From a virus: a stretch of DNA of 46,495 nt. Position 1 is the first letter of the stretch; each line of letters starts with the position of its first letter. Shown here in pieces: positions 4,842 through 46,495 of this stretch. The notes under the pieces are model-generated. The model saw only the letters and a list, made by a program, of their open reading frames with translations. It searched no databases and was not told the DNA's origin. Where the stretch lies: positions 1 through 46,495 of the IMG/VR virus record IMGVR_UViG_3300044737_000123. One strand, given 5' to 3'. A program made the translations under genes and the position numbers.

Positions 4842-5614
4842 TGATGGCGTGGGCCAAGCTCGACGACCGCTTCTACGACCACCGCAAGGTCAAGAAGGCG
4901 TGGCTGAGCACGCCCGCGTCGGTGGCCCTCTACGTCATGGCCATCACGTATGCCGCCGCGCACGAGACCGACGGTGCCATCGACCTCGAGTTCGTTAAGG
5001 AGAAGGTGCCCTCCCGTCGTGACCGCGACCGCATGACGACAGCCTTGGTTGACGCTGGCCTGTGGACCGAAACCGAACACGGCTGGCTCATCCACGACTA
5101 CCTCAAGTACAACCCTTCGCACGCGAAACTGGAGGAGAAGCGCGTCAAGGACGCTGAGCGAAAGGCGCTCGGGCGCTCAACGCAGTCCGGGCAACGTCCG
5201 CGTGGACACGACGCGGACTCCAGTGGGATACCTGGTGGACTCCCCCCGGAGTCCGAACGGTATCCAGTGGTCCCGACCCGACCCGTATTTAAAACAGCAG
5301 TTGTTAGCCCTTCCAACGCCAGTGGTCGCGAGCGAGCGGGCGGCAATGGGGCAACAACCACATCAACCGATGAGGAGCTTGCCGAGCACATCCGTGGCAT
5401 GCTCGCTAACGCCGTCGACGGCCTGATGACCACCGAGGGCTGCAAGGCCCCGACCCGCCAAGCGGTCCTCATCGCCCTTCGCCGCCATCACCCCAGCCCT
5501 GCCGTGGCGTTGGACGTGGCAACGAAGGTGCGGTCGATCGTGCAGTCCCAGGACCGTGCTCCGAACATCGTGGGCCTCTACGAGCAGAAGCTCGCCCAGG
5601 CGGTGGCGACGTGA
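4841..5614 (+). CDS. Replisome-organiser-like replication initiation protein
   Basis: A 257-residue protein with a strong GGAGGGG ribosome-binding site. The N-terminal ~90 residues (MAWAKLDDRFYDHRKVKKAW, 'SVALYVMAITYAAAHETDGA', 'VDAGLWTETEHGWLIHDYLK') resemble winged-helix N-domains of phage replisome organisers. A disordered linker (about 105-170) leads to a helical C-terminal domain (about 175-257) that could contact helicase or primase. It probably binds the phage origin and recruits host replication proteins. The family call rests on N-terminal pattern and position. Confidence 0.6.
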   Translation: MMAWAKLDDRFYDHRKVKKAWLSTPASVALYVMAITYAAAHETDGAIDLEFVKEKVPSRRDRDRMTTALVDAGLWTETEHGWLIHDYLKYNPSHAKLEEKRVKDAERKALGRSTQSGQRPRGHDADSSGIPGGLPPESERYPVVPTRPVFKTAVVSPSNASGRERAGGNGATTTSTDEELAEHIRGMLANAVDGLMTTEGCKAPTRQAVLIALRRHHPSPAVALDVATKVRSIVQSQDRAPNIVGLYEQKLAQAVAT

Positions 5615-34892: not shown

Positions 34893-35624
34893 ATGCGCCG
34901 CTTCCCGGTCCCCACGAGCACCAAGGCGCTCGGCGGGCTCGCCGCCCTGCTCGTGCTCCTTATCGCCGCGGTCGTCATCCTCTTGGTCGTCGCCGGCCAT
35001 CACGCCGGCAACCAGTCCGGCGACTCCCTGAGCAAGAGCAAGGACGCCACCCACCAAGCCCAGAACGCCAACGCGAAGGCCACCAAGGCATCCGGGCAGG
35101 CGGTCAAGGCGCAGCAGCTCAACGCGACGCTCGTCAGATGCCTCACAAAGCGCAGCCGCGCCGCCGCTGCCAAATGCCTCAAAGCGCAGCCCGGCGCCCC
35201 CGGCCAGCCCGGAGCACCCGGATTGGCGGGAACACCCGGGAGTCAGGGCGGCCGTGGCTTGCCGGGCTTGCAGGGGCCTGCCGGATTGCCGGGCAAGGAC
35301 TCCACGGTGCCGGGGCCGGTCGGTGAGCAGGGGGCCCCTGGACAGGACTCCACTCTCCCTGGACCGCCTGGCAGGCAGGGCGCTGATTCCACTGTTCCGG
35401 GACCGCCTGGCCCACCCGGGGCCGACTCGACCGTACCCGGCCCGCAGGGCCCCCAGGGGCCGCCTGGAGCGGACTCGACTGTTCCTGGGCCCCAAGGCGC
35501 TCAGGGGCCCCAGGGAGCTACGGGCCCGGAGCCGACGTCGTTCACGTTCACTGACGCCACGGGGTTGACGCAGACCTGCAGCGACCCCGATCAAGACGGC
35601 AACTACGCGTGCGCCCCTAGTTAG
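34893..35624 (+). CDS. Membrane-anchored collagen-like protein
   Basis: A 243-residue protein starting directly after the previous stop. One transmembrane helix (GGLAALLVLLIAAVVILLVV, about residues 14-35) is followed by a helical linker with two cysteines and then about 100 residues of G-x-y collagen repeats (residues about 105-208). Within them the unit DSTVPGP (or DSTLPGP) recurs five times. A short globular C-terminus (FTFTDATGLTQTCSDPDQDG) ends the protein. Type II topology would display the collagen-like trimer outside. Possible roles: stalk, surface change in lysogens, or envelope spacer. Function unproven. Confidence 0.75.
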   Translation: MRRFPVPTSTKALGGLAALLVLLIAAVVILLVVAGHHAGNQSGDSLSKSKDATHQAQNANAKATKASGQAVKAQQLNATLVRCLTKRSRAAAAKCLKAQPGAPGQPGAPGLAGTPGSQGGRGLPGLQGPAGLPGKDSTVPGPVGEQGAPGQDSTLPGPPGRQGADSTVPGPPGPPGADSTVPGPQGPQGPPGADSTVPGPQGAQGPQGATGPEPTSFTFTDATGLTQTCSDPDQDGNYACAPS

Positions 35625-36589: not shown

Positions 36590-36802
36590 TCACGCCCCCA
36601 GAGAGAAGGACACGGGTTGGGGTTCGTCGTGGCCCTTAGGAAGCTCGAACACGAACGTGTGGCCAAGACGATGAAGCTCGCCGCAGCGCGTGCAGTAGGC
36701 CACGTTCACCGAAAAGCCCACGTTCACGCCATCCCGCTCGATTTCCACGAGGTTGTGGCGCCCACGACGGCACAACCAACGCCCGATCCAGTAGCGCAGC
36801 AT
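36590..36802 (-). CDS. Small zinc-binding cargo protein (DUF1660-like design)
   Basis: Minus strand, 70 residues from ATG 36802; a TTG at 36841 would add 13 residues. 'RWLCRRGRHNLVEIERDGVN' and 'VAYCTRCGELHRLGH' give C-x4-H...C-x2-C. Same design and strand as the gene at 26117. TAGACT lies 7 nt before the ATG, a -10 position for a leaderless transcript, but the -35 is weak. It converges with the endolysin gene. Confidence 0.6.
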   Translation of the reverse strand: MLRYWIGRWLCRRGRHNLVEIERDGVNVGFSVNVAYCTRCGELHRLGHTFVFELPKGHDEPQPVSFSLGA

Positions 36803-37380: not shown

Positions 37381-37453
37381 AGCGGCCAGTGGGGCTTGAA
37401 CCCGCAACCTCCACGTTGGCAACGTGGTGCTCTACCAATTGAGCTATAGCCGC
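37381..37453 (-). tRNA. tRNA-Gly (anticodon GCC)
   Basis: The minus strand folds as a full cloverleaf of 73 nt: acceptor GCGGCTA/TGGCCGC (one G·T), D arm GCTC/GAGC, anticodon arm CCACG-TTGCCAA-CGTGG with anticodon GCC, 5-nt variable loop, T arm GCGGG-TTCAAGC-CCCAC with one C·A mismatch. Discriminator T; no encoded CCA. A TATAAG box lies about 20 nt upstream. It lies inside the element, far from both ends, so it is phage cargo, not the integration target. Confidence 0.9.
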
Positions 37454-37861: not shown

Positions 37862-38026
37862 ATGGAGGAGCATCCGACTGAGGTCGCGCGCAAAGCGCTT
37901 ATCGCTGCCGCTTTGGCCGAGGGGGAGCCGTGGCGCGCGTTGCTGCTTCGGATTGCGCGAGCGCTTCCGCGTCGGGCCCCGCTTGGCGAAGCTCAGCCTC
38001 AGCCACGCGCTCACCTAGCTGGGTGA
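37862..38026 (+). CDS. Small ORF overlapping the repressor 3' end
   Basis: A 54-residue frame with an AGGGAG ribosome-binding site and a promoter candidate upstream. The helical part 'EVARKALIAAALAEGEPWRA' looks protein-like. It overlaps the repressor gene by 128 nt on the opposite strand, so either it is spurious or this is a real sense-antisense pair. Confidence 0.45.
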   Translation: MEEHPTEVARKALIAAALAEGEPWRALLLRIARALPRRAPLGEAQPQPRAHLAG

Positions 38027-38399
38027 CGGCGATAAGGACGGCCTCGAGCTTGGTCTCGATGCGGTCCAACTGCGGCAGCAGGTCCGGGTCATCGGCGATT
38101 CCGTTGTCGCCGATCAGGAACTCGGGCTTGACACCAAAGAACGATGCGAGCTTCTCGAGGTTGTCCCACTCGGGCATCGTTCCAGCCTCCCACGTCTGGT
38201 ACGTGCGGTAGGCGATCTGTAGCCGCTCGGCCATCGCCTGCTGCGTGAGTCGCTTGCGCTTGCGCAACTGAGCGATCCGCTGTCCACGTGCCTTTTCCGC
38301 GAGAGCCATCTGGAGCTCAGCAAGGCTATGGACGATTCGTGGTCCTGTCGTCGTATCGTGCGCGTACCGCGTCTTCGTGATCAGTGCGTGCGCTTGCAT
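37899..38399 (-). CDS. XRE-family phage repressor without protease domain
   Basis: Minus strand, 166 residues from ATG 38399. An upstream extension to 38615 would run through the Cro-like gene and is rejected. Helix-turn-helix at about residues 40-98: 'RIAQLRKRKRLTQQAMAERL', 'QIAYRTYQTWEAGTMPEWDN', 'LEKLASFFGVKPEFLIGD'. The C-terminus has a coiled coil (LDRIETKLEAVLIAVTQLGE) for dimerisation. No S24/LexA-type Ser-Lys protease is present, so RecA-triggered self-cleavage is unlikely. Its start codon region serves as -35 of the opposite promoter. Confidence 0.8.
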   Translation of the reverse strand: MQAHALITKTRYAHDTTTGPRIVHSLAELQMALAEKARGQRIAQLRKRKRLTQQAMAERLQIAYRTYQTWEAGTMPEWDNLEKLASFFGVKPEFLIGDNGIADDPDLLPQLDRIETKLEAVLIAVTQLGERVAEAELRQAGPDAEALAQSEAATRATAPPRPKRQR

Positions 38400-38435
38400 T
38401 GCGTGGACAGTACGTGTTAGAGTGCGCGCATGCAA
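38394..38435. promoter_or_regulatory. Symmetric divergent promoters of the lysogeny switch
   Basis: Plus strand: TTGCAT (38394-38399), 18 nt, TAGAGT (38418-38423), then 6 nt to ATG 38430. Minus strand: TTGCAT (complement of 38430-38435), 17 nt, TACTGT (complement of 38407-38412), then 7 nt to ATG 38399. Each -35 is the complement of the other gene's ATGCAA start. Both mRNAs would be leaderless, and CTTGCAT/ATGCAAG forms an inverted repeat suited to dimeric repressor binding. Confidence 0.6.
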
Positions 38436-38675
38436 GACGCAGCGACGCCTATCTTCCAGCCGCGGCGGCTCTACGCAGCGGCTAAGGAAGCAGGGCTGAC
38501 GCAGCAGGACATCGCGATGCGTCTGGGCATGTCGATGCGCGCGGTACAGAAGTGGTTCCTCGGTGAGTCCACCCCAGGTGGGGACAAGCTCATCGCCCTC
38601 GCGCGTCTGCTGCACATCGAGCCGGCCGCGCTCTTCGAGCCCGTGCCGAACAGCAACGGTCGGGAGGCCGCATGA
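38430..38675 (+). CDS. Cro-like XRE helix-turn-helix protein
   Basis: An 81-residue protein, ATG 38430. 'LYAAAKEAGLTQQDIAMRLG' and 'MSMRAVQKWFLGESTPGGDK' form a standard XRE helix-turn-helix, followed by 'LIALARLLHIEPAALFEP'. It is divergent from the repressor and heads the right-hand operon, as Cro does. It probably represses the repressor gene and its own promoter. Its ATGCAA start is shared with the repressor's -35 element. Confidence 0.8.
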   Translation: MQDAATPIFQPRRLYAAAKEAGLTQQDIAMRLGMSMRAVQKWFLGESTPGGDKLIALARLLHIEPAALFEPVPNSNGREAA

Positions 38676-40374: not shown

Positions 40375-40742
40375 CCTCCCACGCCTATCAGGTAGACGCC
40401 AAGCTCGCTCAGCGCCTCAGCGCGCTGGAGAAGGCCAACGAGCGGCGCAAGGTGATGTTCGCCTACGAGCGCGCCCTGCGCTCGGGCGAGCTGAGTCTCG
40501 ACAGCGTGATGGCCGACCCGCCCCAGGCCCTTTGCCACCTCGCGCTCATCGACCTCATTCGCATGGCCCGCACGTTCAGCGTCAAGGGCCGCGGTCATCG
40601 CGAGGTGTGGGTGGAGCGTCTTGGCCGCCGTGCGGTACTGGACAACATCAACCTCTGCATCCCCTTGGGGCGCGCGTCGATGCGCTCGAGGTCATGGGTG
40701 GCTGAGAACACCCCGTGGAACCACCGGAGGGCTGCGCGATGA
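40371..40742 (+). CDS. Phage mIHF-like DNA-binding protein
   Basis: A 123-residue protein. 'ALEKANERRKVMFAYERALR', 'SGELSLDSVMADPPQALCHL' and 'ERLGRRAVLDNINLCIPLGR' follow the helix, 'SG-x-S-L-x2-V', helix-hairpin-helix order of the actinobacterial integration host factor family (mIHF). Such proteins bend DNA and assist integration or replication. Here it directly precedes the ERF recombination gene. The match is by pattern only. Residues after 105 differ from the family. Confidence 0.5.
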   Translation: MTSHAYQVDAKLAQRLSALEKANERRKVMFAYERALRSGELSLDSVMADPPQALCHLALIDLIRMARTFSVKGRGHREVWVERLGRRAVLDNINLCIPLGRASMRSRSWVAENTPWNHRRAAR

Positions 40743-41425
40743 CCGCCATCGAGCACCAGCTCTACGCCAAGCTCGCGCAGGTCGCAGGCGAGGTCAGCGG
40801 CGTGGGGAAGGACGGACGCAACGACTTCCACAAGTACGACTACACGACCGCCGAGGCGATGCTGCGAGCCATCCGCGGGCCGCTCATCGAGCGCGGCGTC
40901 GTACTCATGCCCTCGGTCACCGCGGTCACCGAGCGCGAGATCTCGACCAACAACGGCAAGGCGTCGACCGTCACGACCGTCCACGTGGACTTCACGTTCG
41001 TCGATGCCGAGTCCGGCGCGATGCACAAGTGCTCGTGGGCCGGCCAGGGCGACGACCCCGCCGACAAGGGTCTGGGGAAGGCGTACACCAACGCGATCAA
41101 GACGTTCCTGCGCGAGGCGTTCCTGTTGCCGATGGGCGATGACCCCGAGGCCGACAAGAGCACCGACGAACGTGCCTCTCAGCGCACGGCCAGCAACGGC
41201 ACGAGCGGGCCGCGTATCACCGAGGATCGCGCGTGCGCGCTCGAGGCCGGGCTCAAGATCCTCAAGGACTCCGGGACCTGGACGGGCGCCAAGCTCAAGT
41301 CCCAGCTCGTAGCGGCCGGTGCTCGTGACACGTCGTCGGTGGGCAAGGCGATTCGTTCGCTGAGCAGTGCTCAGGCGGATGCGCTTGAGCAGGCGATGAG
41401 CGAAGCGGCGGGGGTGACGGCGTGA
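40739..41425 (+). CDS. erf: ERF family single-strand annealing protein
   Basis: A 228-residue protein. 'YAKLAQVAGEVSGVGKDGRN', 'DFHKYDYTTAEAMLRAIRGP' and 'ADKGLGKAYTNAIKTFLREA' are the core blocks of ERF-type annealing proteins. A Thr/Ser-rich linker leads to a C-terminal helical domain (about 165-228). ERF proteins pair complementary single strands for phage recombination and genome circularisation in P22-like phages. It works with the nuclease two genes downstream. Confidence 0.88.
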   Translation: MTAIEHQLYAKLAQVAGEVSGVGKDGRNDFHKYDYTTAEAMLRAIRGPLIERGVVLMPSVTAVTEREISTNNGKASTVTTVHVDFTFVDAESGAMHKCSWAGQGDDPADKGLGKAYTNAIKTFLREAFLLPMGDDPEADKSTDERASQRTASNGTSGPRITEDRACALEAGLKILKDSGTWTGAKLKSQLVAAGARDTSSVGKAIRSLSSAQADALEQAMSEAAGVTA

Positions 41426-41634
41426 TGCCTGGGCCTTCCCACGAGAGCAGCTTCCGCGAGCGCGACGAGCTGCGCCAGGCGGCCATTCAGTTGGCACGCG
41501 CAGAAGATCACCTCGGGTGCGCGGCAAGGGTGCTCGTGGGCACCACGCGCCAGGATTGGGCGTCGACGGCGGATCGCCTGATGAGCGAGTGCGTCGACCT
41601 CCGAGAGGCCATCGACACAAGGCCGGCCGCATGA
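41425..41634 (+). CDS. Hypothetical helical protein
   Basis: A 69-residue protein, ATG 41425 (GTG 41422 is also possible). Helical (RDELRQAAIQLARAEDHLGC). Its start PGPSHESSF is nearly the same as that of the first phage gene, at both protein and DNA level. It lies between ERF and the nuclease, so it may modulate recombination. Confidence 0.55.
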   Translation: MPGPSHESSFRERDELRQAAIQLARAEDHLGCAARVLVGTTRQDWASTADRLMSECVDLREAIDTRPAA

Positions 41635-42512
41635 CGTCGCGACCACGACCAATGCCCCACGAGAACGGCAACGGCACCGGCGAGGTCGTCGAGCGCGCCA
41701 TCGAAGGTGTCGGCTTGCTGCGCTTCGAGAACTTCGGCCCCGGTGAGTGGCTGACCCAAAAGGGTGAGCCCGCGAAGGTCAGCCGCCGACGCTACCTGCT
41801 CGATGGCGACGAGTACGACTCCGTGTCGTCGGTCGTGGACACGCTCTCAAAGCCCGGCCTGTACCCGTGGTATGAGAACGGCGGGGTTCAGGGTGGCGTC
41901 AAGGCGCAGCGCATGGGCGAGCTCGACGACGTGCCCGAAGAGGACTGGCCCGAGCGCGTGCGCCTGCTCAAGCTAGGCGCGACCGCCCAGCGTGACGAGG
42001 GCGCCGAGCGCGGCACGGCAGTCCACGTGGGCCTTCACACCTTCGCCACCACAGGCGAGCCGCCCAACCCGGCCGACTACCCCGGCGTGTGGCATCCGTG
42101 GCTTCAGGGCTCGATGCGTGCGGCCCTGGCCCTGGGGCTCTCGCCCGACACGCTCATCGAGGCCGAGCAGATCGTCTGTCACCCCGAGCACAAGTACGCC
42201 GGTCGTTTCGACCTCTACGCGATGCTCGACGCCAAGCGCACGCTGATCGACTACAAGAGTGGCCGCGGGAAGATCTTCGACCAAGGTCACTATCAGACGC
42301 GGGGCTACGCCGAGTGCTTCGAGCCGTGTGGGCTCGAACCCCCCGAGCGCATTCTCATCGTCGGAATCGACGATGACGGCGGCTTTCAGATCGTCGAGTG
42401 TGAAGCGATCCTTCTCGACTGGATGGCCCTGCTTCACACCTTCCGGAGTCGGAAGCGCATCAACGCCGGGATGGCGGCCCAGCGCAAGGCGGCCCGGAAG
42501 GCGGCGGCATGA
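41631..42512 (+). CDS. PD-(D/E)XK exonuclease, RecB/Cas4-like
   Basis: A 293-residue protein. H132 in 'ERGTAVHVGLHTF', G191-R-F-D194 in 'HPEHKYAGRFDLYAMLD', D207-Y-K209 in 'RTLIDYKSGRGKIFDQGHYQ' and Q222 form the full RecB-type nuclease motif set. It probably resects DNA 5'-to-3' to provide single strands for the ERF protein. This ERF plus nuclease pair is the phage recombination system. Confidence 0.82.
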   Translation: MTSRPRPMPHENGNGTGEVVERAIEGVGLLRFENFGPGEWLTQKGEPAKVSRRRYLLDGDEYDSVSSVVDTLSKPGLYPWYENGGVQGGVKAQRMGELDDVPEEDWPERVRLLKLGATAQRDEGAERGTAVHVGLHTFATTGEPPNPADYPGVWHPWLQGSMRAALALGLSPDTLIEAEQIVCHPEHKYAGRFDLYAMLDAKRTLIDYKSGRGKIFDQGHYQTRGYAECFEPCGLEPPERILIVGIDDDGGFQIVECEAILLDWMALLHTFRSRKRINAGMAAQRKAARKAAA

Positions 42513-45177: not shown

Positions 45178-45470
45178 CCTTCTCCTGGCAGATCTTCCTC
45201 TGGGACGACCGCCCCCTGTTGTCCCTCACCCGTGCCCCCCACGACGCCGGACGTGCGAGCAGCCCTGCCCCCGGGGATGACTCGCGTGGCCCCAAGACAC
45301 GCGAGCTGGGCTCGCCGTCCGGCGTCACGGTAGAGGGGGAGCCCAACAACGTGCGCCGTGAGCTGGGTGCCGCCCGGCGCATCACGGATCGGCCGGGGCC
45401 GAGCCTTACCACCTCGGCTCCGAGCCGGTCCCCTCTCAAGGGGCCTACCGCCGACGGGGAGGCGGCGTGA
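45174..45470 (+). CDS. ORF with doubtful C-terminus upstream of integrase
   Basis: A 98-residue frame. The first ~25 residues (MTFSWQIFLWDDRPLLSLTR) may be coding. The remainder is Pro/Ser/Gly-rich, and the DNA holds hairpins at 45281-45305 (8 bp), 45398-45418 (6 bp) and 45430-45443 (4 bp). It parallels the ORF at 39105. The frame ends in overlap with the integrase start. Confidence 0.4.
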   Translation: MTFSWQIFLWDDRPLLSLTRAPHDAGRASSPAPGDDSRGPKTRELGSPSGVTVEGEPNNVRRELGAARRITDRPGPSLTTSAPSRSPLKGPTADGEAA

Positions 45471-46495
45471 TGACCGGCCCCGCTCAGATCCTCGCCTTCC
45501 CCGACGGGCTCGATGCGTTGACCGTGGCGCAGGCCGCACGGATCATGCGCGAAGTGCGCGATAAGTCCTACCAGCTCTTCCCGCTCGGTCAGGACGCCGC
45601 CGCCTACCTGCGCGTCAAGCGCAAGCGCCTGACCGCCTCGTCCTACCGCGACTACGAATCCTCGCTGGACAAGCTCGCGCGCTACTTCTGCGACCTGCAC
45701 ATCGAGGACTTCGAGCCGCCGCTCGGCGCCAGTCGCTTGGAAGAGTTCCTCGACGCCCAGTGGGGCGGGGCGTCGCCGCGCACCTACAACAAGAACCTGT
45801 CGATCGTGCGCGACTTCTTCAAGCACCAGATCCTTCGCGGCCACCTGCACGGCGACCCGACGATGGCGATCGAGCGCGCCCGCAAGCAGGACCCCTACCG
45901 CACGACGTTCTCACCCGACCAGCGCCGTGCCATCATCGCCGCTCAGGACGACCGCCGCGACCGCCTCGCCGTGCGCCTGCTGCTCGACTACGCCCTTCGC
46001 AAGGGCAGCCTGCAAGCCATCCAGTTTCGCCACTTCGACCATCAGCGCCGGCGCCTGACGGTGTTCCTCAAGCGCGGCAAGGTCCGCGAGCTGCCTATCC
46101 CCGAGCCCGCGTTCTGGCTGGACCTCGAGCGCCTGATCCTCGACACGAGCGCCCAGCCCCATCATCACCTGCTGCCGGGCCGTAAGGGCAACCAGTACAC
46201 GGTCACCCTCTCCCCCGCTCGCCCGTTGAGCGCTCACGGCGCGCACGACTGGTGGTATCGCTGCCTCGCGCGGGCCGGCGTCACGGCGACCGGACAGACC
46301 AGCGGCGAGCGGATGCACAAGGCCCGTCACACCGCTGGGCAGCGGATGCTCGACCACACGAGCAACCTCAAGGCGGTGCAGAAGCTCCTGGGCCACGAGT
46401 CGATTCAGACGACCGCCGATATCTACGTGGATTGGGACATTCAGCAGCTCTCAGACTCGCTTGCTTCGATGCTCTTACAGGAGGACACGGAATGA
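45470..46495 (+). CDS. int: Tyrosine integrase
   Basis: A 341-residue protein from ATG 45470 with GGGGAGG 7 nt upstream (GTG 45467 is possible). The N-terminal SAM-like core-binding domain (about 40-140) is followed by the catalytic domain: Arg in 'LDYALRKGSLQAIQFRHFD', the H-x-x-R box in 'RMHKARHTAGQRML', His in 'KLLGHESIQTTADIY' and Tyr in 'ADIYVDWD'. It catalyses site-specific integration and excision at the tRNA-type attL seen at 3011. The stop is the last codon of the window. Confidence 0.9.
   Translation: MTGPAQILAFPDGLDALTVAQAARIMREVRDKSYQLFPLGQDAAAYLRVKRKRLTASSYRDYESSLDKLARYFCDLHIEDFEPPLGASRLEEFLDAQWGGASPRTYNKNLSIVRDFFKHQILRGHLHGDPTMAIERARKQDPYRTTFSPDQRRAIIAAQDDRRDRLAVRLLLDYALRKGSLQAIQFRHFDHQRRRLTVFLKRGKVRELPIPEPAFWLDLERLILDTSAQPHHHLLPGRKGNQYTVTLSPARPLSAHGAHDWWYRCLARAGVTATGQTSGERMHKARHTAGQRMLDHTSNLKAVQKLLGHESIQTTADIYVDWDIQQLSDSLASMLLQEDTE

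Follow-up and report, generated by a model that had tools for sequence, protein, structure and literature searches.

In phage lambda, the cI mRNA from PRM is leaderless and the cro mRNA carries a leader, with the PRM and PR start sites lying approximately 80 bp apart. The locus described here resembles lambda in its divergent repressor and Cro-like genes and in a repressor mRNA predicted to be leaderless, but its start sites are predicted to be only ∼30 bp apart and both of its mRNAs to be leaderless, in place of the ∼80 bp and the cro leader of lambda. In phage PY54, the leaderless cI and cro mRNAs were both mapped by RACE in a study that also cites the leaderless cI mRNA of lambda (PMC4488713). 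Leaderless mRNAs of divergent repressor and Cro genes are proved in PY54 and predicted here, although PY54 infects enterobacteria and its intergenic region is longer, with as much as 40 bp between the cro promoter and OR3 (PMC4488713). The Pc/Pr conjugation switch of pLS20 has overlapping divergent promoters, as predicted for this locus, at which polymerase excludes the other direction, and a regulator that binds across both, but it belongs to a Bacillus plasmid, uses one regulator and DNA looping, and has Pc far from its first gene (PMC4207663). The bidirectional promoters of Warman and Grainger resemble the locus in their opposed −10 elements and in binding polymerase in one orientation at a time, as is predicted here; they differ in having a shared −10 and start sites that are most often spaced by 10, 18, or 23 bp (PMC12825309). 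In Mycobacterium tuberculosis, an actinobacterium, prpD and Rv1129c are adjacent, divergent, and both leaderless, but these are host metabolic genes with no phage switch (PMC3898074). The present locus is a lambda-type switch in very compact form, of a kind known from PY54 and pLS20, and not a new type of switch; what is novel is its compactness and the sharing of bases.

The window, that is, the whole stretch of DNA analyzed, is a 46.5-kb virus record (46,495 nt) with a G+C content of 65 to 69%. Its terminase large subunit matched 1965 phage records, and the host groups named in those records were almost all actinobacterial genera, including Mycobacterium, Gordonia, Streptomyces, Arthrobacter, and others. 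The genes relevant to lysogeny were as follows.

37899 to 38399, minus strand, repressor gene (166 aa; Pfam HTH_3, E = 1.9e-10)
38430 to 38675, plus strand, Cro-like HTH gene (81 aa; Pfam HTH_3, E = 6.5e-12)
40739 to 41425, plus strand, Erf annealing protein, early lytic arm, same direction as the operon of the Cro-like gene
41628 to 42512, plus strand, exonuclease, early lytic arm, same direction as the operon of the Cro-like gene
45467 to 46495, plus strand, tyrosine integrase (Phage_integrase, E = 3.7e-20), right end of the window

Because a tyrosine integrase is present, the phage was considered temperate. The lysogeny switch would be expected to lie at the divergent HTH pair beside the early genes. 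As in CI/Cro-type switches, two divergent HTH_3 regulators were found to share one control region in an integrase-bearing phage, and the Cro-like gene, presumably the first gene of the early operon, heads the early lytic genes, with the Erf and exonuclease genes forming a block to its right (40739 to 42512). The repressor comprises an N-terminal extension (residues 1 to 38), the HTH_3 domain (42 to 95), and a C-terminal QLDRIETKL segment; a peptidase domain was not matched in it by Pfam. Elsewhere in the window, a tRNA-Gly (GCC) gene (37381 to 37453, minus strand) is flanked by the lysis-side genes and the repressor and may be cargo or related to an attachment site, and a collagen-like Gly-X-Y repeat protein is encoded downstream of the tail region (34893 to 35624, plus strand).

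The start codons at 38430 (plus strand) and 38399 (minus strand) are separated by 30 nt, and both genes begin with ATGCAAG. The frequency of this heptamer in the window (3 copies against 2.6 expected) is unremarkable alone, while an inverted pair at such a distance occurred once in the window and in 0 of 100 shuffles, for a pattern that was picked after the fact. Codon 2 is the Gln codon CAA in both regulators, compared with 26 of 425 Gln codons (6%) across the genes of the window. Second codons are often AT-rich anyway, so this bias is suggestive only. The Cro-like start at 38430 is forced, because an in-frame stop codon (TAG, 38418 to 38420) lies within its −10 box and the HTH has no alternative start codon before it. 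Support for the repressor start comes from the N-terminus, which reads MQAH in the window and MHAH in L019 (IMG/VR 3300031452_000170), the single close relative found and the most useful one, so that MxAH is kept; a more distant relative, L012, also has the extension.

Between and over the two starts, the following promoter elements were assigned.

38418 to 38423, plus strand, TAGAGT, −10 box of the Cro-like gene, 6 nt before its ATG (L019 counterpart, TGG-TACGGT-6 nt-ATG)
38415 to 38417, plus strand, TGT, extended −10 (TGN) of the Cro-like gene adjoining TAGAGT, with TGN kept in L019
38407 to 38412, minus strand, TACTGT, −10 box of the repressor, 7 nt before its ATG (TACTTT in L019, 11 nt before ATG)
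38430 to 38435, minus strand, TTGCAT, candidate −35 of the repressor, on the start codon and codon 2 of the Cro-like gene (same hexamer and 17-nt spacer in L019)
38394 to 38399, plus strand, TTGCAT at the repressor start, put forward as −35 of the Cro-like gene, probably not real (GTGCAT at 22 nt in L019)

On the plus strand, the order is TTGCAT (38394 to 38399), an 18-nt spacer, TAGAGT (38418 to 38423), 6 nt, and ATGCAAG (38430 to 38436); on the minus strand, it is TTGCAT (38435 to 38430), a 17-nt spacer, TACTGT (38412 to 38407), 7 nt, and ATGCAAG (38399 to 38393). The −10 boxes 6 to 7 nt before their own ATG and the paired ATGCAAG starts, on which a sequence-only reading of this DNA had built its proposal, are thus present as described. 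That reading had also proposed interlocked divergent promoters, and an overlap of the two is implied by the geometry, with start codons 30 nt apart and −10 boxes that stand back to back, separate, with 5 bp between them. By this separation, the locus falls outside the class of bidirectional promoters with a shared −10. The predicted transcription start sites are 30 to 31 bp apart.

The two strands of the window contain 922 ATGs, only 5 of which have a TANNNT ending 6 to 7 nt before them; 2 of these 5 are the switch starts, and from these rates the joint chance of both spacings was estimated at ∼3e-5. A strict sigma-70 scan found no promoter. In the Shine-Dalgarno energy test, the repressor start scored +0.5 kcal/mol, equivalent to none, and the Cro-like start scored −2.4 kcal/mol, at the random level (random median, −2.6). 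For comparison, the following gene (start, 38672) scored −10.3 kcal/mol. Several other genes of the window were likewise without a Shine-Dalgarno sequence. Leaderless genes of actinobacteria are marked by a TANNNT approximately 12 bp upstream of the start codon (PMC3160421, PMC3898074), and in M. tuberculosis leaderless genes make up about one-quarter of those whose primary start has been mapped (PMC3898074). At the switch, the first T of TANNNT lies 12 nt (plus strand) and 13 nt (minus strand) before the ATG, with no Shine-Dalgarno sequence at either start. The spacing could in principle be a coincidence, with both genes having ordinary leaders and no Shine-Dalgarno sequence, as might be suggested by the many window genes lacking one in the energy test. 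This was considered very improbable given the joint probability above, the retention of both −10 boxes in L019, and a comparable, separate layout in L012. The best reading inferred from these features is that two promoters, overlapping and excluding one another, give leaderless or near-leaderless transcripts. Near the switch, an ORF at 36802 (minus strand, to ∼36590) encoding 70 aa with a CxxC motif has TAGACT 7 nt before its ATG and is possibly another leaderless gene.

The L019 phage had no terminase match, and it and the window phage are otherwise unrelated. Their repressor and Cro-like proteins have 36 to 44% of residues in common, while the switch DNA is 80% identical over 61 columns, aligning as a single block.

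38388 to 38443, no strand assigned, DNA block common to the window and L019 (blastn, E = 7.5e-8)

The identity runs across a frame-changing 1-nt indel within the first codons of the Cro-like reading frame, and hence it is the DNA and not the protein that is kept. Substitutions inside both −10 boxes of L019 (TACGGT and TACTTT) hit N positions of TANNNT only, and the start-site separation stays near 30 bp. With the repressor −10 lying 11 nt from the ATG, the L019 repressor mRNA is predicted to have a leader of ∼5 nt. In this alignment, conservation extends to the promoter geometry but neither to strict leaderlessness of the repressor nor to the interlock on the Cro-like side. The leaderless mRNAs originally proposed for both −10 boxes are supported, as predicted leaderless or near-leaderless transcripts, by the spacing, the lack of a Shine-Dalgarno sequence, and L019, but the strict form does not extend to the L019 repressor.

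The same alignment bears on whether the Cro-like mRNA alone is leaderless, with the repressor expressed from a promoter further upstream, inside cro (compare PRE in lambda), or from the ATG at 38309 with a leader. The −10/ATG distance of the Cro-like gene is the same in L019 and that of the repressor differs, as this arrangement would have it, and in PY54 cI is served by a second, strong promoter (P2) at the 5′ end of cro (PMC4488713). It was nevertheless judged unlikely, as the N-terminal extension is kept (MQAH/MHAH) and is present in L012, the ATG at 38309 has no Shine-Dalgarno sequence (−1.9), and TACTGT/TACTTT is conserved together with TTGCAT at 17 nt.

The two −35 assignments fared differently. 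It had been claimed that the −35 of each promoter is the start codon of the opposite gene, and for the repressor this is supported by the TTGCAT hexamer with its 17-nt spacer, kept in L019. For the Cro-like gene, the assignment is not supported, since in L019 TTGCAT is changed to GTGCAT and the spacing goes from 18 to 22; the extended −10 would fit the Cro-like promoter better than a −35 on the repressor start. TTGCAT matches TTGACA at 3 of 6 positions, making these weak −35s.

The operator proposed with this geometry, a CTTGCAT/ATGCAAG repeat, is no longer paired in L019, where the right arm is altered and displaced. Direct repeats of AGTACGTGG were found, 11 bp apart in the window, with two copies 11 bp apart at the same place in L019.

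38382 to 38416, plus strand, three 9-nt direct repeats, CAGTGCGTG at 38382, CATTGCGTG at 38397, and CAGTACGTG at 38408, candidate operator half-sites
38421, plus strand, weaker copy AGTGCGCG, candidate operator half-site

Three copies were reached by 17 of 1,000 shuffles and 21 of 1,290 genome windows, a marginal excess (∼2%). Judged on sequence, the direct repeats are better operator candidates than CTTGCAT/ATGCAAG. A palindromic operator, ACA-N5-TGT (38407 to 38417), was also considered and was dropped because it is absent from L019. The proposal in its original and complete form, with both −35s on the opposite start codons and the inverted repeat as operator, accounts for the exact geometry of the window, the CAA codon 2 in both genes against 6% usage, and the conserved repressor −35. 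It has become improbable, since the Cro-like −35 is conserved neither in sequence nor in spacing and the right arm of the repeat is changed in L019. Moreover, M. tuberculosis shows no −35 consensus (PMC3898074). A viral scan for any ATGCAA/ATGCAA divergent pair with both −10 boxes returned at least 143 matches, and among the matches listed the window alone has two HTH genes, with no second divergent HTH pair of this form.

The reading preferred here, to which a probability of roughly 70% was assigned, is a CI/Cro-type switch with back-to-back housekeeping-sigma promoters that are mutually exclusive, both mRNAs being leaderless, and with direct-repeat operators. It builds on the observed anatomy, the rarity of the −10/ATG spacing, the lack of Shine-Dalgarno sequences, and conservation in one relative; from these, the start sites, mutual exclusion, and operators are inferred. 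In a high-GC actinobacterial host, the switch would be compressed to the 30 nt between the start codons. Rightward transcription of the Cro-like and early genes would come from TAGAGT with its TGN extension, and leftward transcription of the repressor from TACTGT and a TTGCAT spaced 17 nt from it, each transcript starting at the AUG or within ∼1 base of it, which would make both mRNAs leaderless. Because the predicted start sites are 30 to 31 bp apart, RNA polymerase on one promoter would cover the other, so that one direction would initiate at a time, and the repressor or Cro-like protein, bound to direct repeats lying between and over these −10 boxes, would favor one direction over the other. 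If this is true, the locus is a very small lysogeny switch, with ∼30 bp between start codons and no 5′ untranslated regions, whose direction is chosen by whichever promoter polymerase occupies. It would then offer a natural and easily tested case in which promoter occlusion decides a bistable outcome, and it would aid the annotation of repressor start codons in actinobacterial phages. A bolder version, which we regard as tentative and rather doubtful, is that start codons, start sites, and the repressor −35 are the same bases; that promoter competition and leaderless translation, not cooperative operators, set the lysogeny decision; and that the layout recurs in actinobacterial phages (the window, L019, and L012) with starts 27 to 34 nt apart.

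In the more distant repressor relative, L012/L020, TAGGGT lies 6 nt before the repressor ATG, the start codons are 27 nt apart, and a divergent ribbon-helix-helix-like gene (named by eye from the sequence) has TACACT 11 nt upstream. TA is common to the two −10 boxes, and 23 bp separate the predicted start sites; by sequence, L012 would belong to the 23-bp class of shared −10 bidirectional promoters and looks like such a promoter serving as a phage switch. A 12-bp palindrome, ACTACCGGTAGT, is located beside the TA-sharing −10 boxes of this pair (L020, 2914 to 2940; L012, 4914 to 4940). In another distant relative, L011, no TANNNT was found near either start; (T)TCTGCGC direct repeats ∼12 bp apart (4940 to 4985), between divergent HTH genes, are a direct-repeat operator candidate there.

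A search with the switch DNA pattern returned the L019 contig as its sole match, and no prophage relative emerged when genome contigs were scanned with two alignments of the repressor. Loci L003 to L010, L021, and L144 were set aside as having generic HTH motifs only or low GC, and the Erf relatives L013 to L017 contained no relative of either regulator. Among named phages, similarity searches detected no close homologue of either the repressor or the switch DNA. For comparison, 8 divergent pairs near annotated or likely regulators were inspected in 7 actinobacterial phages (Giles, Charlie, Adephagia, Tweety, R4, Nyceirae [two pairs], and Kromp), and none had −10 boxes 5 to 8 nt before both starts or a gap so short. 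One-sided leaderless-looking genes did occur, namely, the Charlie repressor (TAACGT, 8 nt) and, in the Gordonia phage Nyceirae (L146), gp37 (10258, minus strand; 7 nt) and gp39 (11046, minus strand; 6 nt), the latter two with TANNNT before the ATG.
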